Source of the DNA: Isoetes taiwanensis
Taxonomy: Eukaryota > Streptophyta > Lycopodiopsida > Isoetales > Isoetaceae
Length of the DNA stretch: 64,000 bases
Assembly (NCBI GenBank): GCA_021234155.1
Contig: JAJEKV010000010.1
Span: 18,447,418-18,511,417, forward strand
Reading direction: 5' to 3'
Positions 16,922 to 64,000 of the stretch are shown here, in pieces. Numbering within the stretch: the first letter of the stretch is position 1; the number at the start of each line of letters is the position of its first letter. Under the pieces are notes generated by a model. The model was not told the DNA's origin and did no database searches. It worked only from the letters and a program-made list of their open reading frames with translations. The position numbers and the translations under genes were made by a program.

Positions 16922-18052
16922 AAAGTCCTTGTTTTTTCAATAAGTCATACTTATCGGGTTGTTGCAATTCTAGCACTGCAACTCTAAGTATACCACACAT
17001 TTGTAGATTGATTTCATGAGCTTTATCATGGCTTGCCTTGGTGCATTGTGTAAACTCTTTTGAGAATGTCATAACTATTCATTTGTCAATGAGTTTTAGC
17101 ATTGCCTTCCAATGATTTACCAACTTTCTTCTGAAAAACTTTAATTTGTATTGTGGATTTATTAGAGTTGAAGGCACTACATTCTATACTTGATGAACAA
17201 AGCATCCAATCCAACACAGCAAATTCGTGGTTTTATGCTGACTGATTTGGCTTGCTTAAGCAAAGCTAATTTCAAATGAAGGTGTTACTTACGTACTTAC
17301 TTGATGAAAGCATCCAATCCAAAACAACAAATTTACAATATTCTGTAGAGAGTTTTTGTTTGTTTAAACATGCTTGAGCCTAGGGTTTGAACCCAGAGAT
17401 CCTGAAGCTTTATGACAAAACCAAGTGATGGCAGAATCTCGGATCCACAATTCCGGCTCTGTCTGTAACCCATTCCGCAAAAAAACCAATCCGGTAAAAA
17501 GAAAGATGACGAGTAACAGAAAAAACATTTTGGTTTTTCCTGTTCCTCTTTCGCTGTGGCCCCGTCCGCTTGTTTTCATCCGCCAAAAAGCAGCGACCAG
17601 AGCTCTGCAATCATTAGCTTACTTAGAAGGTTCTTAGGCGTTAGTTTTTAGATTAGGCTTATTTATCCATAGATTTCTCAAGGTTCGCGAGATATGACCA
17701 GAAAGATGGATCTGGACTGTTGGAAGAGATTGGATGGTTATGATGAACAGGGTTGTTATACACGTATACGATAACAAAGGGCAATTCTTGAGAAGAAGTA
17801 TTGCAATGGAGGTTGAATGGGCTCTTACATTATTGGATTTGGGAATTCTCACACAAATACGAAATAGCTTCTCAAATTTGAAGTTGGTTGATGTTGCAAC
17901 AGTAGTTAGGTATCTAATTTAATTTATGCAATTCTTGAGGACACGTAAAAACCATTTGGCTTGTGTGCTGCAGCGTCGATCTAAATGTTGGATTTGAAAA
18001 GATCTCATTTAAAGATGCTACAGAGAGCAGATGATTGAGCATGTGTGGTTAT

Positions 18053-18190
18053 GGGAGCTCCCATGAGTTCAACAAAGGATGTAATGAAGCTAGATCGGCT
18101 GTCGACTCATACATTCGAATGTTCTATACAGATAGAACAACAACGTGTTTAATGAGGGAGCCGATAGATTGGAACCTTCCTTGAACTATA
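18053..18190. mobile_element. MITE copy lacking the right terminus
   Basis: It begins GGGAGCTCCCATGAGTTCAA, matching the left end of the 164-bp MITE, and keeps the inner GTTCTAT..ATAGAAC pair. It fades after CCTTCCTTGAAC, without the terminal GGGAGCTCCC. It is diverged and immobile. Confidence 0.75.
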
Positions 18191-18257
18191 ATATAATTAA
18201 TGGCTAATCTTAGCCATTTGGTTACATTTTTTGGCCATTCGGGTTTTGATTTTTTTG

Positions 18258-18362
18258 ACAGACAGACAGACAGACAGACATCCATCCATCCATTTGGTTA
18301 CATTTTTTGGCCATTAGGGTTTTGATTTTTTTTACAGACAGACAGACAGGCAGGCAGGCATG
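18258..18362. repeat. tetranucleotide microsatellites
   Basis: A CAGA run followed by CATC units, then after a 40-bp spacer another CAGA run passing into GCAG units. The spacer repeats the sequence just before the first run, so this is a small tandem duplication that includes the microsatellite. Confidence 0.9.
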
Positions 18363-18784
18363 CAGTATTTTTTACGTCATATCATATGGCAGCATCCCAT
18401 ATAGGGACATATGACGGTCCCCTAAATGTCCCACGAGAGACTTGAATACGATGAGACCTCCTAATTTAACCAAAGGACTAGCTACCAACCACAAGGAGAG
18501 GACACATTTTTTAAGAATAGTAAAATCTATTAAATATAAATGAGATTCTCCAAATATTTGAAGGATTCACCAAAGTATGTACATTTTTTTGAGATATTCT
18601 TTGAATTTTTAATTCAATTTCTTGCAATGTTTTCATTAAACTGCCACACTCGAGATCACAGGTTCAAGTATGACCACTACCGATCTAGTAATGGGAATCT
18701 TAAAATCCCTTGCTCCGAGGCCATGGGTTCAAGTATGATCAATCGATCTTGTGGTAGAGACCTTAAAATCTGCCATATGTATTA

Positions 18785-21212
18785 ACATTCGAGAGCAGTA
18801 TCGGGGCCCGCCAGGGATGCCCTCTCTCTCCCACACTATTTAAATTGGTCTGTACATTGTCAGTTAGAGATATGGCTTGCTGATAATGGAGGCAATGGGG
18901 CTCAACTTCTACACCAGATCACCAGGCAGTTAATCTATAGTGATCAGATGTGGACCTCCTAACTCACAGTCAAGCAGACATGCAACGCCATCTCGATGCC
19001 TTGGACACATTTTGCCAGGTGACTGACATGCGCGTCAATTTGGCCAAGACCAGCATGCCAGCCAAGGACCCTAACCTTCACTTACCCTGGACAAAATGTT
19101 GAAGTGGTGCCCGATTACAAATATTTATGGTTGGAGTTCTCGTCTTCCATAAACTGGGGCACATCCGGCTGCGAGCCGCAGCAGGTTGGAAGGCACTCTA
19201 TGCAATGCAGAACAATAGCCACAAGACAGAGTTGTATGATTGGGCTCACCAGTCGCACCTATTCAAGGTGCTAATAGAACCTGTGCTTTTGTGCCTTTTG
19301 TGTGGGGTCGAGGTCTAGGACCCGATGGTTTCCCTTGCCACTTGGAATAAGTTGGAGTAGGTGTAGAAAGCTTCTTGGCACCGCCTTTGGGGGTAAGGTC
19401 CACAATTCCATACCAGATACTGTTGCAGGAGACATGTTTTTTGCCTCTTCAGAGGGGTGCCCTTGATAGATACATCGTCTACTTCCAAAAGGTGGTCAAT
19501 ATGGATGATACTCGTCTCCCTAACCTCGCTTACACTGTGGCAATGGGGCCTCAATGCTTAACGGCCTGCTGGCAAAAAAAGAGAGCTCGGTGGCTGGCCA
19601 GATGGAATGTACATGAGCACAGGTGCATCCGAGTGCAAACGGAGGCAGATCGCCACAGTCTCAGACAAAACCTTGATATGCGCTTCCTCAACAAGCTATG
19701 GGATGCCAGCACCCTTGAACAGGTCAAGACAGCACATTACCAATGCCACATAAACCTCATGTTGGAACGGGGCCCGCAATGGTACCTGCGCACTTATCTA
19801 CCTATGAAAAAGCACGGATCCATTGCCTCTATCTGCACAGGTGCATACCATCTCCGGATTGAGATGGAAGATGGATTGGGGAGCCGCGCTAGGAGAGGCT
19901 TTGTCAACGTTGCCAAGTTGGAGCTGTGCAAGACGAATGCCACAGCCTCCAAAGCTGTACGGCATATAATGACATTTGGATACGCTATGCTGAGCTGGTC
20001 CTCCCTTGCCAGCCCCTGCATAAGATGTTGAGCACGGCCTCAGTACAGATGTTGGGACCATAACTTCAAGAGGTCATGGATCGCCGGGATTAACTGGGTC
20101 CTCGGGCACTTGCCTGATATGTGTGCATATTTCTTCCCCCCTACCCCCGATAGATGTTTGTACATTTTGTTAGAACTAGAAAAACATCTAAATTGATGGA
20201 AAGTTTGCAACTATCTATGGCAGATAAGATTAATGTGGTAGCGAAGTTAGTGCTTCGCAGTACCTATGTATATGCAGACTCGATATTATTGGCACCACAG
20301 AATATCACTGGGCAGTTAACGAATGCAGTAAGGAATTTTGTATGGGGAGGAAACGAAGAGGGCGCGAATATCAAAGTAGCTTGGAATAAGTGTCGTGTGT
20401 CTAAAAAGCATGGTGGTCTGGAGATGTTGGACATCTCCTTACATAGTAAAGTTCTAGTGAGCAAGTTCTTGTGGCCGATACTAAATGAAGATGGAAGTCC
20501 TCCAGGTCTTCAACTGTTGAACCAGTCGTTGCTGCATTCTATTCCATGTGGTAAAGTCTTCATGCAAGCCGCTTTGCCATGGGTGCTCTTTTATAAGTTG
20601 AAGCCTTTTTCCGGCGTGTCACCTTTCTTCAAAGGCTTACTTAAGGCTTGGGAAACCATTAGAAACTTATGGTTGTCACTCAGTTGCAATGCATGTATGC
20701 CATAGAAACTAGTAATAATTCGAAACCCTTATTTTCTGTAATGGATATATGGAGTCAAAGGAGATGGTCATCTCAACTATGCGGGTGATTGGTATTTTCA
20801 AGGCATTTTTCTATCATGGCATGACTTCCAAATCTGGGAGTTCGTAGCTGGAAATATTTCTACTATGCAAGGCCTATGGTGGGAAAGTTTTTGGTAGTTC
20901 ACGAGGTATGGATGAATGTTGCTTTATCTCTAATTGCTATAAGCTTCTCCACTCAAATAATTTATTGCAGTTATCATTGAAATGGTCTATAGAATGAACT
21001 GAAGAGAATCTAGAGACAGAACCAACAAGTCAAGAGTTATGGGAAAATTTCTTCAGGCAATTGTGATGTAAAAATGTATATCTTCGCTATGTGATTACCT
21101 CCACATAAGCGATAAGACTATGCGGTTGGGTTGATATCACATAATTTTAAGTTGTATTGACAAATTTATATGAATAGAAACATCTTTCAAAAAAAGAAAA
21201 AGAAAAAAAAAG
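18785..21212 (+). pseudogene. second LINE family, copy A (RT to poly(A))
   Basis: A 5'-truncated non-LTR element. It opens with the RT motif RQGCPLSPTLFKL. The YSDD active site seen in copy B is broken here by a 2-bp insertion near 18945. Then come a long C-terminal frame (19375-20031, with LPLQRGALDRYIVYFQKV and MLERGPQWYLRTYLPM) and the thumb-like frame at 20154-20705 (VVAKLVLRSTYVYADSILL, NFVWGG, KKHGGLEMLDISLHSKVL). It ends near 21188-21212 in an A-rich tail. Multiple stops make it inactive. Relative to copy B it lacks the zinc-finger segment. Confidence 0.8.
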
Positions 21213-23365: not shown

Positions 23366-24557
23366 TTCCTTGGACTGAAGGGAGCTCCCAAAGTCCTTGT
23401 CTTTTCAATAAGTCATACTTATCGGTTTTTTGCAATTCTAGCACTGCAACTCTAAGTTCCACACATTTGTAGATTGATTTCATGAGCTTTATCATCGCTT
23501 GCCTTGGTGCATTGTGTAAACTCTTTTCAGGATATTATATTCCAGATTTGTCAATGAGTTTTAGCATTGCCTTCGAATAATTTACCAACTTTCTTTTGAA
23601 AAGCTTTAATTCGTATTGTGGATTTATTAGAGTTGAAGGCACTACATACTATACTTGATGAAAGCATCCAATCCAACACAGCAAATTCGTGGTTTTATGC
23701 TGACTGATATGGCTTGCTTAAGCAAAGCTAATTTCAAATGAAGGTATTACGTACTTACTTGATGAAAGCATCCAATCCAATACAACAAATTTTTGTTTGT
23801 TTTAAACATGAATAGAAAGATTGCAATATCCTCTACTTACTTATGATTTCATATAATTATGCATCTAAATTGTTAAACCAGAAGCTTGAGCCTAGGGTTT
23901 GAACCCAGAGATCCTGAAGTTTTATGACAAAACCAAGTGATGGCAGAATCTCGGATCCACAATTCCGGCTCTGTTTGTACCCATTCCGGCAAAAAAACCA
24001 ATCCGGTAAAAAGAAAGATGACGAGTAACAGAAAAAACATTTTGGTATTTCCTGTTCCTCTTTCGTTGTGGCCCCGTCCGCTTGTTTTCATCACGCCAAA
24101 AAGCAGCGACTAGAGCTCTGCAATCATTAGCTTACTTAGAAGGTTCCTAGGCTTTAGTTTTTAGATTAAGCTTATTTATCCATAGATTTCTCAAGGTTCG
24201 CGAGATATGACCAGAAAGATGGATCTGGACTGTTGGAAGAGATTGGATGGTTATGATGAACATGGTTGTTATACGATAACAAAGGGCAATTCTTGAGAAG
24301 AAGTATTGCAATGGAGCTTGAATGGGCTCTTACATTATTGGATTTGGGAGTTCTCACACAAATACGAAATGGCTTCTCAAATTTAAAGTTGGTTGACGTT
24401 GCAACAGTAGTTAGGTATCTAATTTAATTTATGCAATTCTTGAGGAAACGTAAAAACCATTTGGCTTGTGTGCTGCAGCGTCGATTTAAATGTTGGATTT
24501 GAAAATATCTTATTTGAAGATGCTACAGAGAGCAGATGATCGCACATGTGTGGTTAT

Positions 24558-24695
24558 GGGAGCTCCCATGGGTTCAACAAAGGATGTAATGGAGCTAGAT
24601 CGGCTGCCGACTCATACATTCGAATGTTCTATACAGATAGAAGAACAATGTGTTTAATGAGGGAGCCGATAGCTTCATTGGAACCTTCCTTGAAG
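24558..24695. mobile_element. MITE copy lacking the right terminus (in copy II)
   Basis: Same truncated form as at 18053, beginning GGGAGCTCCCATGGGTTCAA. The truncation predates the duplication, because both copies end at the same point. Confidence 0.75.
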
Positions 24696-24774
24696 TATAA
24701 TATAATTAGTGGCTAATCTTAGCCATTTGGTTACATTTTTTACCTGACCATTAGGGTTTTGATTTTTTTAACAT

Positions 24775-24834
24775 ACAGACAGACAGACAGGCAAGCAGGC
24801 ATGCAAGCAGGCAGGCAGGCAGGCAGACAGATAG
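24775..24834. repeat. CAGA/GCAG microsatellite
   Basis: CAGA units passing into GCAG/GCAA units, equivalent to the run at 18.34 kb but longer. Confidence 0.9.
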
Positions 24835-25261
24835 TACTTTTTACGTCATATCATATGACAGCATCCCATAGGGACATATGACGGTTCCCTAAATGTCCCA
24901 CGAGAGACTTGAACACGATGAGACCTCCTAATTTAACCAAAGGACTACCAACCACAAGGAGAGGACACATTTCTTAAGAATAGTAAAATTTATTAAATAT
25001 AAATGAAATTCTCCAAATATTTGAAGGATTCACCAAAGTATGTACAATTTTTTGAGATATTCTTCGTACTTTCACTAGGTTTTAGAATTTATAATTCAAT
25101 TTCTTGCAATGTTTTCATTAAACTTCCACACCCGAGATCACAGGTTCAAGTATGACCACTACCAGTCTAGTAATGGGGATCTTAAAATCCCTTGCTCCGA
25201 GGTCATGGGTTCAAGTCTGATCAATCGATCTTGTGGTAGAGACCTTAATATCTGCCATATG

Positions 25262-26545
25262 TATTAACATTCGAGAGCAGTATCGGGGCCCCCCAGGGAT
25301 GCCCTCTGTCTCCCACACTATTTAAATTGGCATGTACATTAATCAATTGGAGATATGGCTTGCTGATAATGGAGGCAATGGTGCTCAACTTCTACACCAG
25401 ATCACCAGGCAGTTAATCTATAGTGATGATGTGGACCTCCTAGCTCACAGTCAAGTGGACATGCAACGCCATCTCGATGCCTTGGACACATTTTGCCAGG
25501 TGACTGACATGCACGTCAACTTGGCCAAGACCAAGGTGGTCCTCATATCGTCAGCATATCAGCCAAGGACCCCAACCCTCACTTACCCTGGACAAAATGT
25601 TGAAGTGGTGTCCGCTTACAAATATTTGTGGTTGGAGTTCTCGTCTGCCATAAACTGGGGCAATTCCATCCGGCTACGAGCCGCAGCAGATTGGAAGGCA
25701 CTCTATGCAATGTAGAACAATAGCCACAAGACGGAGTTGTATGATTGGGCTCACCAGTCGCACCTATTCAAGGTGCTAGTAGACTCTGTGCTTTTGTGCC
25801 CTTTGTGTGGGGTCGAGGTCTAGGGCCCGATGGTTTCCCTTGCCACTTAGAATGAATTGGAGCAGGTGCGGAAAGCTTTCTTGGCACCGTCCTTGGGGGT
25901 AAGGTCCACAATTCCATACCAGATACTGTTGCAAGAGACATGTTTCTTGCCTCTTCAAAGGGGTGCCCTTGATAGATACATCGTCTACTTCCAAAAGGTG
26001 GTCAGTATGGATGATACTCGTCTCCCTAACCTCACTTACACTGTGGCAATGGGGCCTCAATGCTTAATGGCTTGCTGACAGAAAAAGAGAGCTCAGTGGC
26101 TGGCCAGATGGAATGTACATGAGGACAGGTGCATCTGAGTGCAAATGGAGGCAGATCGCCACAGTCTCAGACAAAACCTTGATATGTGCTTCTTCAACAA
26201 GCTATGGGATGCCAGCACCCATGAACAGGTCAAGAATGCCAGCACCAATGCCACATAAACCTCATGTTGGAATGGGGCCCACAATGCTACATGCACACTC
26301 ATCTACCCATGAAAAAGCGCAGATCCATTGCCTCTATTCGCATAGGTGCACACCATCTCCGAATTGAGATGGGAAATGGATTGGGGAGCCGCGCCAGGAG
26401 AGGCTTTGTCAACGCTGCCAAGTTGGAGCTGTGGAAGACGAATGCCACACCCTCCAGAGCTGTCTGGCATATAATGACATTTGCCATACGCTATGCTGAG
26501 CTGGTCCGCCCTTGCCAGCCCCTGCATGAGATGTTGAGCACCCCA
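25262..26545 (+). pseudogene. second LINE family, copy B, 5' part
   Basis: RT palm with PQGCPLSPTLFKL at about 25290 and an intact YSDDVDLLAHS at about 25420, inside a 127-codon frame (25332-25715) that also has VTDMHVNLAKTKVV and the YKYLWLEFS motif. The following frame (ALDRYIVYFQKVV, then ARWLARW) parallels copy A. The element is cut at 26545 by the gypsy LTR and continues at 37325. It keeps the catalytic aspartates that copy A has lost, but has stops elsewhere. Confidence 0.85.
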
Positions 26546-39542: not shown

Positions 39543-39689
39543 CTTTATATTATAAAGTTTTAGTGTATGTCATGAAGCAAACCCTAATTTGAACAGTTGA
39601 GATCATCTGCTTGCATCCAAAGGCCGAGATGTATCGCACGAATTCCCACCACTGTGATTGGCCATGCTCTAATCTCTGAAGCGGAAAGG

Positions 39690-40575
39690 AAAAAGGAAAA
39701 GGGAGAAGAAAAGGGCAAAGTGAAAGGTAAAAAAGCACGGATAAATGAGAAAGAAGGAAAAGGGAAAAGAGCACGAAACAAGAGAAAGAAAAAGAAAGGG
39801 AGAAAAGAAAGGTAAAAAGGACACTATGAAAAGAAGAAGAGGGAAATGGTGAGGACAAGAGTAAAAGGAAAGGGAAAAAGCGGATGAGAAAAAGGATCGA
39901 GAGAGAAGGGAAGGGAGAAGGAAAAGGAAGGGGGAGAATGAGGGAGTGAAAATGGGTATTGGGAAAGGAGAAGAGGAAAAAGGTGGGGAAAGGAGAAAAA
40001 AGGAAGGGAAAGGGGAAGAGAAAGGGAGGGGAGAAGGGAAAGCGAAAGGGAAAATAAAAAGGTAAGGGGAAAAAATGGCATAAAGAAAACTAGAGGAGGG
40101 AATGGGGGGAAAAGAGAAGGAAAAAAAAAAGGAAGAGGGAAAGTGCTAGGAAAGGGGAAAAGGGAAGGTACGAAAAAAAGGAAAGGGAAAAGAACAAAAG
40201 AGAGGGAAAGGGAAGGAAAAAAGGCACAAAAATAAAGGGAAGGGAAAAAGGGCATTGGAAAAAAGGAGAAAAAAAAGGGGAAGGGATATGGGGAAATAGA
40301 ATAGAATGGGGATATGGGGAAAGGGGAAGGACGAGGGAGCGAAAAGAGACACTGGAAAAGGGGAAGAGACAAAGGGAGGGAAAAAGGGAAAACGAAAGGG
40401 AGAAGAAAAAGGGAGAGGGAAGAAAAAAGGGCATAGAGAAAACTGGAAGAGGAAATGGGGGAAAAGAGAAGGGAAAAAAAGGAAAAGGGAAAGTGTGAGG
40501 AAAGAAGAAAAGGGAAGATGTGGAAAAAATGAAAGTGAAAAGAATAAAGGAGAGGGAAAGGGAAGGAAAAAAACA
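39690..40575. repeat. purine-only tandem repeat, period about 353 bp
   Basis: About 880 bp of G and A with few exceptions on the plus strand. Landmarks such as GAAAACT(A/G)GA(G/A)GAGG recur at 40085 and 40438, and neighbouring landmarks keep the same spacing. This is a higher-order tandem repeat, not random low complexity. Long frames here (up to 255 codons, Phe/Leu/Ser/Pro on the minus strand) arise because purine tracts contain few stop codons. Confidence 0.85.
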
Positions 40576-40590
40576 ACAAGATGCTGCGCA

Positions 40591-40607
40591 CGGAGGGTTG
40601 CCCTCCG
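40591..40607. repeat. 17-bp perfect hairpin
   Basis: CGGAGGGTTGCCCTCCG: a 7-bp stem with a 3-nt loop, followed by GACCCGAGAGTGAA. A near copy with the same 3' flank is at 57138-57153 (stem partly lost). It may be the structured end of a non-autonomous element. Confidence 0.7.
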
Positions 40608-40625
40608 TGACCCGAGAGTGAAATG

Positions 40626-43712: not shown

Positions 43713-44290
43713 TTAAACTAATCCCAAAACAGCCATACGAGTGGCTTTATTCACATGTTGTTGTAAAGGCACCATTGCATTTTGCAAATTTTGTTGTTGT
43801 AATCCTTGTTGCAACATATCAATATTGAAGTCTCCAACAATAGCAACGTAATTTGTTAAGTCCAAACTTTGAACTATTTTTGATATTTCTTCACAAAACA
43901 AACGCTCTGAGGTACCTGCATTATCAGTTGTGTATAAGTTAACAACTTCCACAGCTTTATTTGAAAAGATAGTATGTGCAATACCTGGAATTCTATGCAA
44001 GTTAACTACCACGATCCTCATGTTGTCTTTGTTTCTGACGAGGTGTGTATGAATGAATGTCATTGTATTGGTTGTTCCTTGCTCATATAATTCAATCAAT
44101 AATGCTCCAAATTTATATAAAGTTGCAAGGCTATTTCTGCTGTTGTTAGTTACAACATGGTATTGTGTTTGATGGCATATGTCTATGCTTGTGATACGTG
44201 CTTCTTGCAAACATAGGATGTCCAAGTCATTAACCGTAATCCGCGAAAATATCGGATGCATGTAGAGTTCTTTGAAGCTTGTGTTAAGTG
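43713..44290 (-). pseudogene. Helentron C-terminal AP-type endonuclease domain (partial)
   Basis: The 182-codon frame starts near the end of the helicase, in another frame, and a one-base shift near 44290 would join them (YTLNTSFKELYMH). It shows LDILCLQEARI (the catalytic Glu strand), MRIVVVNLHRIPG and VAIVGDFNIDML (the Asn/Asp motif) in the order found in endonuclease/exonuclease/phosphatase proteins and LINE endonucleases. The last motif, SDH, is missing because the frame stops at 43713 soon after HVNKATR. In Helentrons this domain may help nick target DNA. This copy looks truncated. An independent LINE fragment is less likely, since the frame follows the helicase directly. Confidence 0.75.
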
Positions 44291-46324
44291 TATGTAAAAT
44301 TGTTTGTACATCTTCGATTTGTTGTTAAGTCATACATTTTCATTTGCCATTGTGCATCTGTCCTTAGCACCGCCATTTCTTCATCCACACTACAATTTGT
44401 TTTGAAATGTGACATTGCCGTGGTTTTAAAAGGTACAATCCATCCATTGTTTTCACTTTCATTGATATCTTGCTTTATATATGTCATGCCCGGTTTGCAC
44501 ATTCCAGTTGGATCAAAAGCAATTTGTTCAAATGTGCCTCCTTGTGCTTGGTGAACTGTTCTCCCTGCTGCTGGTCCTAAAGGGAATTGTTTTCTTGATA
44601 TCTTGTGCCTTTCGTTGCGTGAGACTTGGATAAGTTTTGTAACTTTGTATATTGGTGTGTTGATGTCATCTAATGATCCATCTACATATCTACCTTTTCT
44701 TCTCCTTAATGATTTTCCTGTGTCTTTATCTGAGAATTGTATCCATAATACTTGCTCCCCGTTTGCAATGCTCATTTGTTGAAATGTACCATCTGCACCA
44801 TTTACCAAACCATCTTCCACATCAATATTCATCGTTAGGTCAACTATCATAGATTTCTTTAAGTTGAGTTGCTTATGTAATCCTTGCGTTTTGTGAGGAT
44901 CTGAAGGAAGATGTAATCCATGGGGACATGATGGTTGACGAATATCCTCTGAATCACAAACTATTTCATCACCAATCATCTTTTGGAAAACGTCGAAATT
45001 ATGCTTGTTTTTGTTGTTATTTGTTGCAAAGATGAATGGGATTTGCATGCCTTCACGAGGCCTTCTTACACATATGGAATTCAAGAAGTCTATGTCATCT
45101 TGTGTTTGTTGAGCCAGTCGCATTCTTGATAGAATTGTTGCAAATATTTGATCATCTTGTTAGCGCACTATTTCCTTTAATTCATAGTACTGTATATTAG
45201 ATTTCCATGAATGATAGAGTTCTGGAATTGAGACAGAACCAAGCCTCTTGAGATCCTTTTCTTCAGGATTAGCAAATACCATCTTCTCGCATATAGGGTA
45301 TAAATCGCCACTGACTATTAGGTCTAAACCACCAAAGGGTGAAACGCCCCAGCAATACTTGTACTCACAACATAGATGGTCCAAGTGCATAAAAAGTGGC
45401 ATTCCAATCATAGATATTTCATCTAGAACAAGTAACCTTAAGGCACGATATGTATTCCTTGCTAGTTGCAGTCTTTGTCCGGTAGGTAGACTATATTGTT
45501 TGCCGCCTGCTTCTGTTGGAGTTAATCCAAATGCGGAATGTATTGTTGTTTCTTTTATATTATTTGCAGCTTTTCCAGTCAATGCAGCAACTATGCATGT
45601 CGTATATGGCGCATCATTTGGATATTTGATTTCATAAAACCTCTTTAAGCTTTCTATTAAACATCTTGTCAATCTCGATTTACCAACTCCTAGCACCTCC
45701 CGTAAGGAATAATAAAATTGGCGAAATGTCATCCACAATCTTCCTATACATTATGTCATCATATAACAATCTCTGCTCTTTGTTTAGTGTTCTGACAAAA
45801 TTATAGTATTGATCATTGGGCATAAACTCGTTGTTTGTAATTGTTCGTATGGATGATATTGAGGAACTTGTACTTGGATTTGGATGTACTGCATTATTCA
45901 TGTCCAACCCCACATCGAACTCATTGTTGCCTCCATGTTCTTCATTGTTGCCACAATGGTGTAAGCCTTGTTCATGTAAGTCATCAGCTATTTGCTCTAT
46001 ATGAGTCCATACTTCATCTAATTCAGTAGATGAACTGAATACAAATTTCTTGTGTGCTTCTTCAATTTGTTGTTGACAATGCAAATATGCATTATGGAAT
46101 GTGCTTTGACCACATAAAAGCTCATCTTCATTTCGGAATGGCAAATGCAAAAGCAAACGTTCATATGCCCACGCTTCTATATCTATTGTCATATTGTAGT
46201 TGTTGAAACGAATAACTGCATCTTTTGTTTCATGTCTTCTATTCATTCTTCTCTTGTCTATGTACTTACCCTTTGAGTCGATATATGAGGATACAACTCG
46301 CCAATGATAGTTCTTCAAGTTCAT
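44284..46324 (-). pseudogene. Helitron PIF1-like helicase (frameshifted)
   Basis: Three frames carry the helicase. 46324-45680 is a linker ending in the Walker A start LFLTGGA. 45738-45160 resumes GVGKSRLTRCLIESL and holds AALTGKAANNI, TIHSAFG, Walker B LLVLDEISMIG and VSGDLYPI (motif III, usually GDxxQLPP). 45123-44284 holds DGLVNGADGTF and QFPLGPAAGRTVHQAQGGTF (motifs V/VI). One extra base near 45691 interrupts Walker A, and a stop near 45160 separates the last part. PIF1 helicases unwind DNA 5'-3'. All motifs are still readable, so decay is recent or due to sequencing error. Confidence 0.85.
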
Positions 46325-46348
46325 TCTCCCTGCTCTTATATTTGTCTA

Positions 46349-48440
46349 TCACGTATAGTTTAATATCGCTGCTATCGGGGACGAAGTTGTTTCAACCGTT
46401 TCTTTTGACTTGAGTCGGAAGGTACGTTTGTGTGGTTCACTTGTATCAATATATATTACAGTTCGAGATAATGTTTGTAATCGCATTCCTAATAGAAGGA
46501 ATAGAGCTTGTTGCACAGGAACCTCTTGAGAACGTATAAATGCATTACCCAATTTTCGTATCCTTTGTATTGTATCCACATTATTCACTTTACATTCTTC
46601 TATAATCTTCGATAATGTTGCTGAGATATCAGTTTCGGGATTGGTAATATAAGAAAGACAGTATGCTGCAACGGCATATGGATCAATGATATACTGTAAA
46701 TCAGTGTTTGCTCTCCATAGTCGAGATATAGTAGGATTGAAGGGATTTGTATATGCATCTTTAATTTTTCTCTGCATAAATACTTTAGGCCCAGGAATTG
46801 TTTGGTATAAAACATTAATATATTGCTCCTCTGTAATTTGGAGATTGCTCAACAAATCATCAATCCCTTTGTCACCTTTGTCATAATTGCTTTCTAGGTA
46901 TTTATCAATTAAGACTTTCATCTCACTTGCGGCTCTTTTTTCTTCTGCACTGCTATTGCTTGGGGATAAGATGCATGTCTTTCTCATTGGAGGTTGAGGA
47001 TAGTTGAACCTACATTTGGCGTTTTTTCTTCCCCGCAAGATCTAGAATGGTTATGTGTTTGAATATCACGTAATTCTTCGGGTAATAACATATGATCGAG
47101 TTGTCATGAATTTATCTACAAACTCGATGATCCGTTCTGGTGAATCATAAGGATATTGTGGTGCATTCTTTACCCACAGTAACATGTGATCATGTGGACT
47201 TCCACGATTTTGAAACTGTGTAACACAAACACTATCAACGACCCCACCTACAATTGAAGGATCATTCTCTAGAAGCTTTTTCATTGCATCCATGCGATGC
47301 ACATAATACCTTGCACATGTTAATGAATCTGCCCTTGTCAATTCTAATTCTGATAAGCCTATTGTCCGACCAATTTGCGGTAGTTCCTTCTTCAACAATA
47401 TCAGGATTTAGATGCTTCAATGCCACAATCAAATTTGTCCAATATTTCTCTGCCATACTAAAAGTTACAAACAATGATGCTGGACCAAGGAATCTTAACA
47501 TAGCCATTGCTTCCTTTTTCACATGATTCAACTTATCTGGTGATGTTCTTAATGCCTTTAAATCATTGAAACCCAAATTGTCTTTCAATAAGTTTCTCAA
47601 GTTTGTGGTGTCTAAAACATAAGATGCAATGAGGTTTCTATCTTCTCTTCTTCCTCTTCTTAGCCTGTAGTTTACAGAGCCTTGCACAAAATGAATTTCA
47701 TCCATGATAAATTTGAAAAAAATGTTCTCTATATTCCTTGCAAAATGACGATCTATATTCAAGAGTTCCCATTCACAAATTTGCTTATATGTAAACTTCT
47801 CTGCAATTTGTGGAGGTCTTTTCTTTCCTCCAAATAGAGTTGGAAAACAAGATACCTCTACATTTGAAACCATAAAGAAACCCATTGGATGGTTTCCTTC
47901 TCCAGGAGCTACAATTACCTTTTGATCTTGAAAATCCTGGATATGTTGAGCGCTTAAGAAGTTTTGCACTAATGTGTTACCTTGATGTTCCAAATGTAAT
48001 TCGTCAATTCCTAAGTTTTCAGTATTCACATTTGTGTATCGCATTTGACAGTCAATAGTTGATAGCCAGTTCTCGTTTATTTGAATACCTGATTCTTTAT
48101 ATAAATCTTCATCTTTTAATTCATAAAGTGCATTCATAACATGGCGTGGTCTGATAGAACCTTCCATATACGCATTTGTATCACTTATTCTTCGTCTCAA
48201 CTCAAGTCTAATAGTTGCATCTTCATCAAGAAATCTAGGAAGTGAATCTTGGGTCGTCTTAATGTTTGAAGCAACATGTACAACAACACCTTTGATACGA
48301 TGTTGCCCTATGCCTGCTTGTGAAATAGATATTTGTGCAAAGGGTATTCTCAATGATATTAACCTTTCTTCTAGTGGATGCAGCATAAGAACAGTTGGTG
48401 GTACAACATTCAATTCAATTATACCAAACTTTGTTCAGTA
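46349..48440 (-). pseudogene. Helitron N-like and Rep (HUH) domains (frameshifted)
   Basis: 48413-47262 is a 383-codon frame with the Helitron-like N domain (PLEERLISLRIPFAQIS, GNHPMGFFMVSNVEVSCFPT, DEIHFVQGSVNYRLRRGRR). It shifts frame near 47390 to 47066-47398, which has LTCARYYVHRMDAM and the HUH motif QFQNRGSPHDHMLLWV near 47190. 47038-46349 contains CRFNYPQPP, NPFNPTISRLWRANTDLQYI and the tyrosine motif AAYCLSYITN near 46650, where the usual lysine after the second Tyr is asparagine. HUH coordinates metal and Tyr attacks the DNA strand. Confidence 0.85.
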
Positions 48441-50066
48441 CATTGCTAAGGTTCTTGAAATGTGTCTTTTGTTTCATCATCTGGTAAGAGAATCTTAACC
48501 TCTTGCAAGAAAGACAGGGAATTATTGGAATATCAGCAGACGCCTCTTCAAAATCATAGATACCATTAATACAAATGTCTCCAATATCAGTGTCTACATG
48601 GTTACCATCATCGACGTTGTGTAAAGAATCGACTTGAATGGTGCTAATATTGCTTGCAAATATACCATTGTCCTGTAATCTTAGTAATTTTGATGGATTT
48701 GATTGATCAGAGGTGGATAGTTGTATATCACATTGTGACAAATGTTTTGAACGTGCTCTTTTCTTCCAAGAAGTTGAAGCAATACTGTCTTCTTTAGTGA
48801 CGTTGAGCTCTATATTATTCATGGAGCTTGAACAAACATTTTGATGAGAAATAGCGTCCACGAATTGTACACAACCTTGTAACCTACAAAACCATTAAAT
48901 ATTATAAAATTTGTGCTAAGAAAGTGGAGCAACATAATAAGTGTTAAACCTAAGAAATATTGTACGTGCATTAGAGTTTCATTTAAAGCATACCTGTTAT
49001 GTTTGTTTGCCTCTACACTATGTTGTTCATCACCACGTTGGTGAAGGTTGTTCATGGACATGGAACAAAGATCCACATTGACACCACCATTGACACCACC
49101 AAGAGCATTTATAGATGGTACAACACCTTCATTGTTTTGAACCGAGCCTTCAAAATCATGAATACCATTAATAGAAAAGTCTTCAATATCAGCATCGAGA
49201 TGATTACCATCATTCATGTTATGTATAGAATGGACTTCAATAGTGCTAGTATTACTTGCAAATTCATAAATGTTGCGTGTACTTGACAACGTTGATGGAT
49301 GTGATTGATCAGAGCTGGGCAGTTCAATATGACATTGTGAAGAATGTTTTGAACGTGCTCTCCTCTTCCAAGAACTTGATGCAATATCGTCTTCTGTACT
49401 CATATTGAGCTCAATATTATTGATGGATCTTGGACAAACATTTTGATCATGAGTAGGATCCATGAAGTTTACATGGTCTTGCAAGCTGCAAAAGTATTAA
49501 ACATTGCAAAGTGTGTGAAATCATGAATAGCATCCATGAAGTTTACATGGTCTTGAAAGCTGCAAAAGTATTAAATATTGCATACCTGTTATGTGTATTT
49601 CTATCCACAACATGTTGTTCAAAGACATTGGTGAACGTTCATATCAACATTCACGTCATGAATACCATTTGGTGATGCTACAAGAGGATGTTGAACAATG
49701 TCGAGAGTGTTATCAAGTAAGCCATTTTCTTCAAGTCTAGAAACTTTAGCCAAGATTGCTCTAATAGAATATTCATAATTTGGATGTGAATCTACGAAAT
49801 GCTTTGCACGTGCTTTCTTTGATCCAACTCTATTTCTATTCCAAAATTGTAGTAATGTTTCTTGTTCATGCAATGTCCAAGCCATTATTTCAATATAGCA
49901 ACACCTCTGGACAAAGCACACATTACAATTTGAACCGTTGAGCTATATTTCTTTAAACTAAATAAAGTAAGACAATGTATAATTGCGCAAGGCTTACCAA
50001 TGAAAGTTACGTCAAATTGGTAATTCTCCAAATTACACTTATTGTCTAGTTTGCAATGTGACATAC
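48415..50066 (-). pseudogene. Helitron N-terminal exons, including a duplicated exon
   Basis: Possible exons: 50066-49998, 49904-49586 (start MAWTLHEQETLLQFW at 49885), 49485-48994 and 48883 onward into the Rep frame, each with GT-AG borders. The MAWTL exon has a helix-rich, Trp-containing pattern reminiscent of SANT/trihelix DNA-binding domains. Exons 49485-48994 and 48883-48415 are paralogous: both read NVC.S..NNIELN, EDxIAS.SWKxRARSKH and SDQSxPS. The second ends in a Cys-rich segment (PCLSCKRLRF) leading into the Helitron N domain. A frame break near 49625 interrupts the first exon. Confidence 0.6.
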
Positions 50067-56999: not shown

Positions 57000-57600
57000 C
57001 AAGAAGCAATTTCATTAGCCAATTTACCAATGCCAGATGATGATGGTGATAATGATGTTAATGTGCATAATAGCCTCTTCTTTTATGTTTGGTAACCTAG
57101 TTCAACTGTATGTTGACTTAAATGCAAAACTTCCGCACGGAGGGTTGCCCTCTATGGCCCGAGAGTGAACCTCAATATAGAAGGGGCCATATAGACGTAA
57201 ACAATGGAATAAAGCAAGGGCATAGACAATAAAGAAAAAATTATAGAAATACATTGCGATTCTTTTAGTGTAGCTCTCTAGGGCAAAGTGGATACGTGAA
57301 AGGTTAAGGTTTAGCATCTTTTTTAGGAAATTATTCTTAAAAAATAGGCCAATATCAATACTGAAGTCATGAAACCTTTAGACATTGGCCCCAAGGGCTA
57401 TATCATGTTCTATGAGTTGGAATTGCATAGAACCAAGACCTAGTGTTCTAATATTGATTTGTTGCCAAAAGAATTTATGTTGCAATGTTGGAATATTTTA
57501 ATGGTCGGGGCATTGATTTCAAAGAAATCCATTTAAAAAGGTGACTTTTTATTTATTTATCTAAACATGTATAAGGGTCTATTTATGCTTGATATATGCC
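57000..57600. other. no gene; second copy of the hairpin motif
   Basis: CGGAGGGTTGCCCTC at about 57138-57153 and its 3' flank CCGAGAGTGAA match 40591-40625, except that the distal stem has TATGG in place of CGTGA. Otherwise the stretch is A/T-rich and featureless. Confidence 0.5.
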
Positions 57601-57602
57601 AT

Positions 57603-57730
57603 TTTCCGCCCGTCAAGCATTTTTTTAGCAGTTTTGTTCTGTAATATTTAGACGAATTCGCGTGACGGCCTGCAGTCAGATGGCCCGTCAGGCATACATA
57701 TGAAGGCCGCTGACGGTCACTGACGGTCAG
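57603..57730. promoter_or_regulatory. cluster of TGACGG/CCGTCA motifs upstream of the RING-like gene
   Basis: Five copies in about 125 bp: CCCGTCAAG, GTGACGGCC, CCCGTCAGG, and twice CTGACGGTCA in direct repeat, in both orientations. They lie 200-340 bp before the start codon at 57938. They could be subterminal transposase-binding sites of the candidate element, or promoter sites (E2F- or bZIP-like). Sequence alone does not decide. Confidence 0.4.
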
Positions 57731-57937
57731 AGAAGGCCACCAGTCATCAATTCTTTTCTGGCGCGAATCATTTGGAAGAATGATTTTATGCATAATTCTT
57801 CCTCGGGCTCTTCAAAATCCTTAATTTCTTGGACTGTCCGACCGGATTGATCTGTCCTTTGCCTTAATGCGAATGATAATGCTTCATCTTGCTTCAAATT
57901 CTTCTGTTTTTTTAATTCAACACTCGAAGAAGAAAAC

Positions 57938-60301
57938 ATGGCGACCAAAACCAATTCCGGCGAGGTAAGAAGCATTTTTTTTTAGTCCGAGTTTGTTTTT
58001 TTTCTTAATGTAGAATGTTCAATCGGGTTTCCAGGACATGCTTTTCGCAAGAACTCCTCTTGAATTTGCTAAGTATCGCAAGCTTTCTATGGAGGGCAAA
58101 AATCCAAGAAGCATCAAAAAGGGAGATGTTTGGAATCTGAGAATTTCAGCAAGTTTGGCGAAGCCCATGCCCAAGATGGGCAAGATTCATGTAAAAATTT
58201 GATCGGGGCTGAGTTCAAGACATCTCTGACAGACTTGATCGAGAGGGTTTACCAGAAACCCCTTCCAAACAATGAACTTCGAACATTGTTTGCCAGAGCA
58301 TTCGCCTGGTCTCATAGTGCTAAAGCCTTGCAGAATCCTGATGAGTACAAGGTCAATTGGGCGAGTTTAGCAGCAGAGGCTTACTACTGAGTGGGCAAAA
58401 TCTGATTGAACAAAGAGCATGGGAATGCTTTTGAAAAGAACACCAAATCCCTGCTGAACCACATGAGGTCTCTTTCTACAATGTTAGAAGACAGTAAAAA
58501 GGAATTGGTGGAGAAGCAGGCTGATCTGTTGAGGATGGAGGGTTCTGCTAATAGCTCGATGGCATGCTTTAAGGATCTTGAAGATGAAATTAATGAGAAA
58601 AGGCAGAACTGGTTGGCCTTGGAGCTCTTCAACCCTGAAGAAGAGGATGCAATACAGTTAATACAAAAGGAAGAGCAAGCTTTGCAATCATTTTTAGACA
58701 AGCAGAAGTCGAAGACCAACTCCTCAAGTCTGCAAGCACTAAAGTTAAGTATTTCTATCCTTGAGTCTGAAATTGAAGAATATGAAGTTAACTTGAAATA
58801 TTGGCATGCAAAGTGCAAACATGTGGCACATTTGCATCAGAATCATAAGTCAAAGAAGAATCTGCCAAAGATAGGAATGGGAAATTATTTTTTCCCAATG
58901 TCATCAGATGGGGGAAGTACTTGTGAGGGCTGTGGCCTTCTGTTTTCAGAGGAATATGAGTTGCATGTCAAACTCAAAGAATGTGGACACATTTACCATG
59001 TAATTTGCTTCAATGTTGTGCTGGAAAGTATGCAATGTATTGCATCAGGTTGTGAAGCTGAGGTGCCTGCCACCATTTTGGACGAGCTTGGCTTCAAGGA
59101 ACTGAAGCCACCAGTGTCTGATGATGAAGAAGATAGTGATGAATCTGCAGAAGAAGTGGAAAAAATCAGCAAAGAAGATTTCAAGTCCAAAAGCACAAAG
59201 AAGGAGGTAACTCCTAAGAAAAGATTCAAAGATGATGCAAGCTCTAGTACCTCCTTATTCAATGAACCAGCAAGTAAAGACTTTCAGCTAGTCAGACAAG
59301 CAAAGAAAAGATTGACAAGGAGTTCTACAAAAAGTAATGCATCAAAGCCAGTTGAAACAGGTATGAAATTTGCTGATTACTAAATTGTTTAGGTCTGTTA
59401 ACTTAATTGTGTTCATATGTATTCATTATAGATCCAATCGATGTGGACAAAGTTAGTCCTGTAAAGTTTTTACACTTGACTCGTGAAGAGGGTTTTCAGC
59501 TCAGATCTAAGTCAGCATGTATTAACTTACAAGGGACTGGTTCTAAGAAAAAGAAAGTGCATAAACCTACTGGAAGAAAGGAAATTCGGAGAAAGAAAAA
59601 AAGGCGTGGATGATATTCTGGAGAATTTCTTTGCAAAAGAACATCAGTCCCTTAACATGCAAGGTAATAGTATTCCAACATCTCATTCAATGAAGTCTTA
59701 AATATCTTAGAATTGTCTGTTTATGTAGCTGAAGGTAGTTCAAAAGCTGGTAAGAGTTCAACAGAAAAGAGTTCACCAGCTAAACAAGTACCATTGAACA
59801 ATGGTAAGTGAGTTTTGCACATTAATTTAAAACCTACAAATCTCTGACATGAATGTCTATTCTTAACAGAAACTGAGATTGAAGAAAATCACTCCCTCTC
59901 TCCTATGAAGACTCCAGTTAAAAACCGGTAGCGCGCTTTTCAGCAGTTTTCTTCTAACTAGTCCTAATTAACATTATGCAGATAATGAAGTCACTGAAGG
60001 AGATGGTGCTGACACCAGCAAGATTCCAACTCCCCTGAGCACCGATGAGTTAAAATTTCCTGAGGTTCTTTACATAGGGTGTTCTTTACATAGTTTAATT
60101 AGTTAGTTTCTTGCTCATGCAGGTCGAGAACTGAGCATTGTAGTAATATCACCAGTGGGTGTGGTGCTAACTCCATCACAGCGGCAAGTACTCCAAACTC
60201 CAGAAAGCCCAGACAGCCCAATGGAGGAGGAGCTTACCATGGAAGGGTGGTTGAAGAAGAAGGAGCAGATGAAGGGAGTTGTGAAAAATATCTTCAAGTG
60301 A
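57938..60301 (+). CDS. coiled-coil/RING-like zinc-binding protein, multi-exon (frameshifted)
   Basis: Exon 1 (57938-57964, MATKTNSGE) splices to 58035. The main exon runs to about 59360 and is followed by five short exons to the stop at 60301. It begins LFARTPLEFAKYRKLSMEGK. About 160 residues of helical and coiled-coil sequence follow (MLEDSKKELVEKQADLLRME, LESEIEEYEVNLKYW). Next is a RING-like Cys/His cluster, CEGCG...KECGHIYHVICF...CIASGC (about 58920-59055), then an acidic run (DDEEDSDESAEEVE) and a Lys/Ser-rich tail with NLS-like KKKRR. The end reads MEGWLKKKEQMKGVVKNIFK. Single-base shifts near 58130, 58390 and 59605 (an A7 run), and two late exon phases, break the frame. I do not recognise the family. 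It converges on the transposase-like gene at 60801 and may be its accessory protein. Confidence 0.6.
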
Positions 60302-60567
60302 TACTTGTTTTGTTGTCAGAAAAACTTTCAGTTATTTTAACTTCTAAGTTATATTTTCATGTAAAACAGTGAGCACCAATTTTCCCTTTTAGGTGCCAGT
60401 TTTGTAAAGTTTTACATGAATACATATCTCTATTATCTTTTGAGGATACTTGTTTTGGAATATGAAGTTGTTTGCAGTCATAGGAGTGCTAATGTTTTGA
60501 GTTATAGTATTAAAAACATTAACTCCAAGTTTTGAAGATTGGCAACTCGAAGTTTTGAAACTAAACA

Positions 60568-60720
60568 ATGAAACTAAAAACTTAATGTTATAAACAATGA
60601 AACTAAAACAATGAAACTAAACAACAAAACAACAACTAAACAATGAAACTAGAAACTTAATGTTATAAACAATGAAACTAAAACTTCATGAATCAATGAA
60701 AGAATCCATGTTACAATCAA
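60568..60720. repeat. 75-bp tandem repeat between convergent genes
   Basis: AACTTAATGTTATAAACAAT with its AATGAAACTAAA flanks occurs twice, 75 bp apart, in an A-rich spacer separating the stops of the two convergent genes (60301 and 60801). It probably contains both polyadenylation regions. Confidence 0.8.
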
Positions 60721-60800
60721 TGTTACAATTAAAGACTTGGATGCAGACAATTTGATGCAGACTTGGAATTTTTTTTACACTTTGATTCATTATGAACACT

Positions 60801-63800
60801 TCATGTAGGCTGATCTGATTCCTGAGCAAACAAAGCACTGTTTTGTGGCAAGCTGTCCAGTATTTGGTTATGTATGTCTTCTGGCAAATTGAAGCAATTT
60901 CCAATTCCATCACTATTGCTCATCTCAAAACAAACTGAAGTTACCAAATGACTGTAAACATTACACTCTGGTTCATTCACAAGTAGCTCATATCTATTGC
61001 ACCCTAAATACTTGTAGAATAACCCAGTAACAACAACTTCATTTCTGCCAAACTTCTGACCCCATGGATCTTTGAATGCCTTCTCAACAACATGTTTGAC
61101 TTTGGTGCATTTAAGAACATAAAAGTCCACCTTCTCTTTATTGTCAGGCTCTGAAACTACAGCAAAATTATCCCCAACTGCAAGAATATCAGACATCCAT
61201 TGTGGATCACCTTCAAACACAGGACCATCCACAATATCTTCCACATAATTAGCACATGGTCTAAGTTCTGAGTACTGCCATGTACCTATTCTGGCTTTGT
61301 TAGGACACTTGGCATGTTTGCCTAACCAGCAGTTATGGCAGAAACAACTATAATCCATATGAGCTACCTGTGTTGGATCTGTTGTTTGAATTGGCCTGAT
61401 AGAATGAAATTTGCTTGAACCTACTAGTGTAGCACAATCAAACCTCTCTGACCTGTCGACTTCATCCACTCCAATTTCCCAAAAGGAGCTGTAAAAAGAG
61501 GATTATTTCTCATATTGTAAGAAAAAAACAGCACTATTTCAGCATACCTGTATCTGTCCTTTCCCTCGAGTTGGGGGTTGTCACTGAAATGTTTAATTAG
61601 AAATACCACTGCATCATGTGCATTTCTTAAGGGTACTGAGCTCCTCTTCAGCATCTCATGAGTTAAAGCTCGTTTGATGACAGCTCCAAAGACCATCATG
61701 CTCACACCGGTATACAATTTCCATGAGATAACAAGAATACATTACAAACACAAAGAAAAACCATAAAAGTACTTACCCTTTCCATGATATGAGGCAAAGT
61801 AGTTCCAATTTATTGGAATGCCAGTGTTGTGGTAGTTCCTGCCAAGGAAATAGAAGGTTCTTGATCCTTTGAACTGATGAGAACATCCATCAAACCACAT
61901 GATGTGCTTGTTGTATTTCACACCTTTGCTGCTCAAGAATGCAGCATGCTTATTCAAGCAATGCTGCACAATCAATGTATCATGGTCCCTGTCATCTGAT
62001 ATGTAGAAGTGAGTTTCCTTCACAACCCTTCTCTCTTTCTCTCGATTAATGTCATCTAACTTGGTAGCGTGTCTATAAGTAATATGCACCAAGATTGTGC
62101 ATTGGTCATTCCTCCAATGCGGACTTTGTATCTCTTCTTGAATCTTAAAACTATAGTTTTCAGCAAAATCTATGACTGACACAATTGTGTCCTTTGGGAA
62201 TGTTGCCAGGCATTCTCTGAATTGCTTGGCTTGCCATCTCCCTTCATAGTTATGTGGAATAAATTCTTTTAGAATTGTTTTTGCTTCCTGGAAAATGCAA
62301 GCAGCAGTTGTGCATTTGTAAACTAGTTTGGTAATTGGTTTACTACCAACTTTGAACCCTCCTTTCCCATCAGGCTCTAGCTCTCCTGTAGGCTCAAGTA
62401 CCTGCAACAGTAGTGACAAATCATTGACATTAGACATCACAAATAGAAATCATGATACTATTAGGTTGAACTCTTACCTTGTCATAGGTTTTCCACTCGA
62501 TTTTGTGATCTGATCTGTGTTCTAGCTCCTTTGGACATGTAGGTAAATTGGCAGGTCCACATTTCTTGCATTTTAGAGTTAAACACTCATGTGTATGCCA
62601 CTCTTCTGTTTCTTCATCCTTTTGACAGACTAATGACCTCCACAACTCACTAGTAGCTGCATATGTGCATGATTTGGCCATGCAAATAGGTTCTGGACCA
62701 CAAACTAAACATGTGCAATTGCAGCTACTACCATGAATCTTCTCATCATGCCTAACCTTGTTTATTGCTTGTCTTATAAAGTCTGCTTTCATGTGGTAGA
62801 CACAGCAGCAAGTTTCTCTATCCCTAACTTTCCTCACATATGGTGGCTTCAAAGCATGAAACATTGAGAAAGATACCTCAAATTTGGGTATTCTGCTGTA
62901 AACCTCTTGTAGAAACATACCTAGGAGAACATCAAATTGAAGAAACAACAAAAGTAAGTAATTGAATTGAAATAAGAATCACAACTACTTTAGAAAAAAA
63001 ACTGACCTGAGTTTCTTCCAAGAAATGCAAGGGATGCATTACTTTCACTCCTTTGGCTAGTCTGATCTTCATGACATGTTTTTTGCAAGGTGACACTCTA
63101 GTGTTGTTTCTCCAGAAGTCAACCACAAATTTTCTTTGATCATAAGAAAGCTTGTCACATCGAGTGCTCTTCTTAAACATTGACCATGGACCTTTCCCAT
63201 GTTCAGCTGCCAACCTTCTATTGACAGCAACTGATACAATTCTCCTATTCAAGTTCAATTGCTTTGCAAAAGCTCTTCTATTGGTATCGAAATTTCTGAG
63301 AGAAAGCCATAGCAGTACTTCTTGCTCTCCAAATATCCGTATCCTTAGCATACTTGTGAGCTGCAAATGATTTCTTCAAGTTATCCACTATAGCTTTCAT
63401 AGTCTTTACTTCTTTGGTGGATTCAACACCAAGTTGAGGCAACCATTTGGCTGCCCCCCTTAAGATATCTTCCTTGTCCTTTTCACTTGCGTTATCACAA
63501 ATTTCAGTTACAAGTTTGCCAATGTTTTTTGATAGCCTTTTCTTCTTCTTTGTGATGAATTCACCATTGACTTTGGCTTGCTCATCTGCAGCAGCCTCCC
63601 TCTCTCTCTGTTTTTGCCTCTCCTTCCTTCTTTGTTCAGCTCTCTTCTTCCTAAAAAGGACAGCTACATATGCTAACAATAGCTAAATTTCACAAAGCAA
63701 GAGTCATTTAATCAACATAAAGAAATAAACATTTCTTACTTTCAATATCCGTGTCAGCACTTGTATGTTTTGGTATAAATGCAGCCTCTACTTGTTCATT

Positions 63801-64000
63801 GGATAATCCTGCACCTACAGTTGAACAGAAAGCTTTAAAAATGAATTCAGCACCATTTCAGCATAAAAAAAATGACAGCAGTACTTGAAAGTAAATAAGT
63901 TACCTGTTGCCTCAGCCATTGTTTCCTCTTGCAAGTACTCAGCAACTGTTTCTTCTGCAACAAATTCACCATGTACCTCTTCAACACATGTACCAAGACA
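60801..64000 (-). CDS. transposase-like zinc-binding protein, multi-exon, 5' end outside the window
   Basis: Exons by GT-AG: 64000-63904, 63814-63740, 63650-63007, about 62903-62478, 62401-61777, 61700-61548, 61488-60801. In order the protein has a basic coiled coil (KKRAEQRRKERQKQREREAA) and a helical DNA-binding-like part ending DFWRNNTRVSPCKKH. Next is a Cys/His-rich zone (CCCVYH, SCNCTCLVCG, KCKKC), then a core with SVIDFAENYSFKIQEEI, HIMWFDGCSHQFKG and NWNYFASYHGKG. A CFCHNCWLGKHAKCPN cluster and a tail (VGDNFAVVSEP...) end it. The motifs match, from memory, a common uncharacterised family of animal genomes that looks like a DDE-type transposase. A frame break near 63290 and an unresolved phase at the 61777/61700 junction suggest decay or sequence error. 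Confidence 0.65.

Follow-up and report, generated by a model that had tools for sequence, protein, structure and literature searches.

A transposon of Isoetes taiwanensis that encloses a transposase-like gene and a convergent coiled-coil/RING-like gene

DNA transposons that carry two genes are already known, and convergent ones are among them, as in the RAG-like transposons. The two genes of MuDR are also convergent, and to our knowledge few plant transposons have an accessory gene that is kept by selection. In RAG-like transposons, the transposase and its partner converge between terminal inverted repeats (TIRs), and zinc-finger motifs are present in the transposase (PMC7204232, available part). 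In maize MuDR, the second gene, mudrB, has no known function and is apparently needed for integration (PMC6446971, available part). The available part of PMC10741241 describes Sola as a group with a DDD transposase, 4 bp target site duplications (TSDs), a length of mostly 2-9 kb and TIRs from 11 bp, which is found in moss and is uncommon in flowering plants; according to the same text, Ginger elements have TSDs of 4-6 bp and termini of the form 5'-TG...CA-3'. Sola repeats are also listed for the fern Ceratopteris (PMC6890710, available part).

The locus described here occupies the right end of the window, that is, of the whole stretch of 64,000 nucleotides that was analysed (C908:18447418-18511417). 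It very probably represents a cut-and-paste DNA transposon with two genes, present here as a decayed copy. As delimited by the shared ends of other copies, the transposon spans 7386 bp (57575-64960), of which 57575..64000 lie in the window and the last 960 bp beyond it (L012:1-960). The genome searched comprises 1,658,258,908 bp in 1110 contigs, and a query of 1 kb taken from the minus-strand gene yielded at least 41 matches in it, including the window's own, eight of the others being 92-99% identical. These eight and two copies of about 80% identity were compared, together with their flanks, with the window extended by 10 kb. The alignment breaks off at 64960-64963 in all ten other copies and at 57571-57575 in six of the ten, and identity over the aligned pieces is 91-99% within the family to which the window copy belongs. 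An initial annotation had set the left edge at 57603, 28 bp inside the true end at 57575; its expectation that the right end would fall outside the window was borne out, as this end is located at 64960, 960 bp past the edge.

The extension also revealed the inverted repeats and the target duplication that the same annotation had proposed to look for. The left TIR, GGGTCTATTTATGCTTGATATATGCC (57575..57600, plus strand), is 26 bp long and imperfect, and pairs with the right TIR, whose reverse complement is GGGTGTGTTTTTAATTGATATAGGCC (64935-64960), at 20 of 26 positions, a match equalled by none of 20000 random interior pairs. The termini of the element read GGGT...ACCC and, in the reading of the flanks, are bordered by two copies of the TSD ATAA, on the left at 57571..57574 and on the right at L012:961-964 (extended coordinates 64961-64964, beyond the window). 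Fifteen copies were read with their flanks, and all ten that retain both ends, spread over four subfamilies, show a 4 bp TSD: ATAA (window), GGCC, ATGT, TCCA, AGGA, ATAT and TATT in the window and its relatives, and ATTT, ACTA and CAAT in three copies of more divergent families. The left end is absent from the other five, by a contig edge in C337, by truncation in C1018 and, in C1107 and C1034, by its position beyond the fetched stretch; in C1045, a left end with a matching 4 bp was looked for and not found. Nine of the ten two-ended copies measure 6.3-8.4 kb, and the copy on C1088 reaches 10.9 kb and contains an internal insertion. The element thus moves as one unit, with GGGT...ACCC inverted repeats and 4 bp TSDs, a movement that is known from footprints alone.

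Since the exact shared boundaries, 57575 and 64960, enclose both convergent genes, with TIRs and 4 bp TSDs, the proposal that a single transposon carries the two genes is supported within this one genome. The same footprints refute the reading of the locus as two ordinary host genes side by side, to which we assign practically no probability. Introns are present in both genes and the databases return no transposase match, as host genes would have it, but the genome contains 2010 loose first-look candidates for the coil/RING protein and 8279 for the transposase core (of which the best 126 and the best 151, respectively, were scored as matches), next to the exact common ends and the TSDs.

Close to the left terminus, at 57664..57740, lies a stretch rich in GACGG/CCGTC, whose repeats are candidate sites for binding by the transposase. 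In eight copies (the window family and C1089), these motifs occur 1-6 times per 300 bp at the left end and 2-3 times at the right end, and at most 0.09 times per 300 bp inside the elements. The left/right counts are 0/0 in family F2 and 1/0 in family F3, so the motifs are not a feature shared with these families and would be family-specific at most. Five further left transposon ends have neither a listed coil gene nor a listed transposase nearby (C779:101766, C1078:13945627, C941:4886660, C57:764970 and C907:6616433), and these are possibly non-autonomous or internally deleted copies.

The window holds other repeats and mobile sequences as well. A Helitron-like element on the minus strand (43716-49496) presents frames for DUF6570, Helitron_like_N (below cut-off) and PIF1 helicase and, after these, an endonuclease/exonuclease/phosphatase-like frame that falls slightly below cut-off (E 4.5e-5), in what we take to be the order of the Helitron2/Helentron types. 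A direct duplication of about 3 kb joins 17194-20000 and 23652-26500 at 90-97% identity and a spacing of 6.5 kb, further repeat families join 20.3-21.5 kb with 37.5-39.2 kb, and a long, purine-rich block of low complexity extends over 39680-40620. A reverse transcriptase frame on the minus strand (1909-2592; RVT_1, E 1e-25) is read as LINE-like. Elsewhere in the genome, the F2 copy on C423 apparently adjoins LINE-like frames (L032 192-1215, minus strand), so that its empty site may be findable in other LINE copies.

The transposase-like gene lies on the minus strand from its stop codon at 60801-60803 to the window's edge (60801..64000) and continues beyond it, its N-terminal exons lying within L012:1-960. 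In the window, its protein presents a Cys/His-rich part followed by DFAENY, SDDRDHD, FDGCSHQFK and HGKG. The motifs to which the initial annotation had pointed in this frame, DFAENY, FDGCSHQFK and WNYFASYHGKG, are present, as is a Cys-rich N-terminal part. The Cys/His-rich exon N-terminal to the core (62478..62920, minus strand) would bind zinc. The core exon (61777..62401, minus strand) contains, according to an alignment of 16 rows from which 7 of the 20 loci were left out, the motifs D1 (VIDFAENY), SDD..HD, D2 (FDGC/SDGC..Q[FW]K) and HGKG. Its key residues vary little or not at all, and the Asp residues of VID[FY] and of the DGC motif, like the SDD, are the same in all 16 cores. The exon after the core (61548..61707, minus strand, right border approximate) carries in relatives a third conserved Asp motif, HDGAGAVIKR: of 15 copies examined, 13 have the pattern HDGA[GE]AV[IV]KR in frame after HGKG, while it is disrupted in the window copy and was sought and not found in C68. 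A second Cys cluster lies in the C-terminal exon (60804..61488, minus strand). The window copy is decayed, its frame being apparently broken near 63.3 kb, in a part that is a single open frame in the relative L032.

On the reading adopted here, the three Asp motifs would make up a DDD triad; both structure models, each made from a single sequence, are too poor to show an RNase H fold (pLDDT 35 and 43). Searches of Pfam, PHROGs, NCBIfam and PDB gave no significant match for the transposase (Pfam and PDB being searched also from the alignment), its profile matched PDB entries only weakly (E 0.054 upward), and profile scans that used two peptide patterns each detected no relative among prokaryote or viral contigs. 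Three viral-contig matches to one query peptide (L001, L002 and L003) were dropped: L001 resembles an RNA-virus polymerase frame, and L002 and L003 hit the same query stretch as L001 at equal identity. A tblastn search of plasmids returned a single match, which was judged to be due to chance. Within the genome, all but one of the 150 core matches listed have E < 1e-79.

The partner gene (57938..60301, plus strand, stop codon at 60299-60301) converges on the transposase-like gene, the stops at 60301 and 60801 being separated by 500 bp, and both genes contain introns, all as the initial annotation had described. Read by eye, its exons comprise a short first exon (57938-57964), a second one from 58035 and further exons after it; the main open frame encodes 325 aa (58406..59380, plus strand, with the exon end near 59360). 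This copy is also decayed, with a frame break and in-frame stops at about 58.1-58.4 kb and what looks like another break near 59.6 kb; the main exon is open in relatives (L032:2279-3739:+ and L036:2806-3837:+), and there are families in which both proteins have open main exons, e.g. L032, and L033 together with L036 (main exons only). A coiled coil precedes a RING-like finger in the protein, as had been noticed from the first. The finger (58922..59053, plus strand) has, in the protein alignment, ligands in the RING-H2-like order C C C H H C C C, and all eight (C3H2C3) are invariant in the seven aligned partners, which are 24-42% identical to the first one (L059 and L063 having been left out); the last two Cys are spaced C-x4-C in six of the seven. 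Against the Pfam RING models, the finger of the window copy scores 17.5 bits, below the curated cut-off of 27.9, zf-RING_2 matches three of the seven partners, also below its curated cut-off (best E 7.4e-4), and the best PDB match is a weak profile match to the RING of RLIM (E = 0.0035).

The two genes are found together far beyond this locus. Genome searches with three different coil/RING queries returned at least 126, at least 100 and at least 119 matches, and the merged lists comprise at least 278 coil loci and at least 175 transposase loci. A listed transposase lies within 20 kb of 73 of the 278 listed coil loci, the expectation under uniform placement being about 1.2 such pairs in all. 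The window's convergent layout, which the initial annotation suggested searching for elsewhere, recurs at 69 of these 73 paired loci among the matches listed (the remaining four have a different geometry). Neither of the two is a host gene present in a single copy. Also among the matches listed, 54 of 150 transposase cores have a convergent coil gene and 96 do not, and 205 of the 278 coil loci have no transposase within 20 kb; incomplete listing may explain these 205, and single-gene versions of the element may exist in the genome. The layout was used for prediction at one locus, C1108, where a core had no listed partner: a coil gene was found at the predicted place and in the predicted direction, with tblastn matches down to E 7.5e-47. 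Seen from the termini, a coil gene lies within 0.9 kb of 33 of 40 left ends, and 21 paired ends enclose a listed coil gene in 20 cases, a listed transposase in 17 and both in 16.

Both genes have thus been retained together in divergent lineages of one genome, and their sequences bear signs of constraint. In comparisons with the window copy, the coil gene has a dN/dS of 0.16 in the two pairs with 71-73% identity, and six scorable pairs of the transposase core (68-81% identity) give 0.05-0.13, silent sites being saturated in many of the more distant pairs; in close pairs (dS below ~0.25), dN/dS rises to 0.32-0.62, as would be seen in copies decaying once inserted. Transposase and partner distances are correlated over nine elements (r = 0.54, with 313 of 20000 permutations as high). 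RING proteins are frequent in plants, and the coil/RING gene could be a host passenger captured by chance, as in Pack-type elements, which would accord with its rate of evolution, roughly double that of the transposase (mean distance 0.62 vs 0.32 in the nine elements). Nevertheless, we consider this very improbable, given that the gene keeps its position and orientation in families whose partners are only 24% identical, that it is under apparent constraint, and that its distances track those of the transposase.

Taking the locus as a two-gene transposon, its mechanism can be outlined in two parts. The transposase would bind the element ends through its zinc-rich N-terminal part, excise the element by means of cuts made by its DDD RNase H-like core, and join it to target cuts staggered by 4 bp. 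All aspects of the partner's activity are inferred, and more weakly so: it probably dimerises by its coiled coil, and its finger might serve for contacts with proteins or for the transfer of ubiquitin, the protein acting as a RING-type ubiquitin ligase or as a zinc-based assembly factor. Through either the transposase complex or host silencing proteins, it may aid transposition, in a role perhaps analogous to that of mudrB in MuDR or of the RAG2-like protein in RAG-like transposons.

The affiliation of the transposase admits two readings. According to the first, towards which we lean slightly, it belongs to the known superfamily Sola, and nothing is new beyond a lycophyte lineage that carries an accessory gene. 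The description in the available part of PMC10741241 fits every feature that can be compared here, including the size and TIR ranges (6.3-8.4 kb in nine of the ten copies, against mostly 2-9 kb, and 26 bp TIRs, against at least 11 bp), and the fern Ceratopteris has Sola repeats listed (PMC6890710, available part); however, the likeness is one of features, and a TSD of 4 bp also falls within the 4-6 bp given for Ginger (PMC10741241, available part). The transposase may belong to Sola. According to the second reading, which is possible and in our view rather unlikely, it founds a new superfamily of eukaryotic cut-and-paste transposons. This would agree with the lack of significant matches in Pfam, PHROGs, NCBIfam and PDB and of relatives in prokaryote and viral contigs, but the libraries searched may contain few eukaryotic transposases, and hence absence from them says little. 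Similar motifs are presumably also present in unnamed animal proteins.

A bolder proposal, which we judge improbable, unites these threads: a deep cut-and-paste lineage, either a new superfamily or a deep branch of a known one, would have expanded greatly in Isoetes and would depend for its mobility on a self-encoded RING ubiquitin ligase. If true, the element would use its own ubiquitin machinery to free the transpososome or to disarm host silencing. The many families with open main exons, together with this candidate activity, offer a direct test of the use of ubiquitin in transposition. In any case, the element adds a large group of lycophyte transposons that the domain libraries searched do not see, and whose genes annotation could take for host genes.

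Compared with the known systems, the element resembles Sola, as described in the available part of PMC10741241, in the 4 bp TSD, three Asp motifs, the size, short imperfect TIRs and a seed-free plant host, and it differs by its convergent coil/RING partner, which that part does not mention for Sola. Its termini, GGGT...ACCC, set it apart from Ginger, with 5'-TG...CA-3'. With the RAG-like transposons (RAGL/ProtoRAG) it shares the convergent layout of transposase and partner between TIRs and, in the transposase, zinc-finger motifs, which are putative here, whereas the TSD is 4 bp here and 5 bp there, and RAG-like transposons have a kelch-propeller protein as the partner and a RING located within RAG1 (PMC7204232, available part). 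Like MuDR/Mutator, it inhabits a plant genome and combines a transposase gene with a second gene, but the TSD is 4 bp instead of 9-10 bp (PMC6446971, available part), and the transposase has no Pfam match to the MULE transposase domain. The finger resembles those of the RING-H2 E3 ubiquitin ligases RLIM and RNF38 in its eight Cys/His ligands and their order, and departs from them in the last spacing, C-x4-C (six of seven partners), in the long N-terminal coiled coil and in the transposon context. In the papers covered by a literature search, no such transposase paired with a coil/RING partner was found. The architecture that had been called new is therefore known in its general form, convergent transposase and partner, from RAG-like transposons (PMC7204232, available part); what appears to be new is the kind of partner, a coiled coil joined to a RING, and perhaps also the transposase family.
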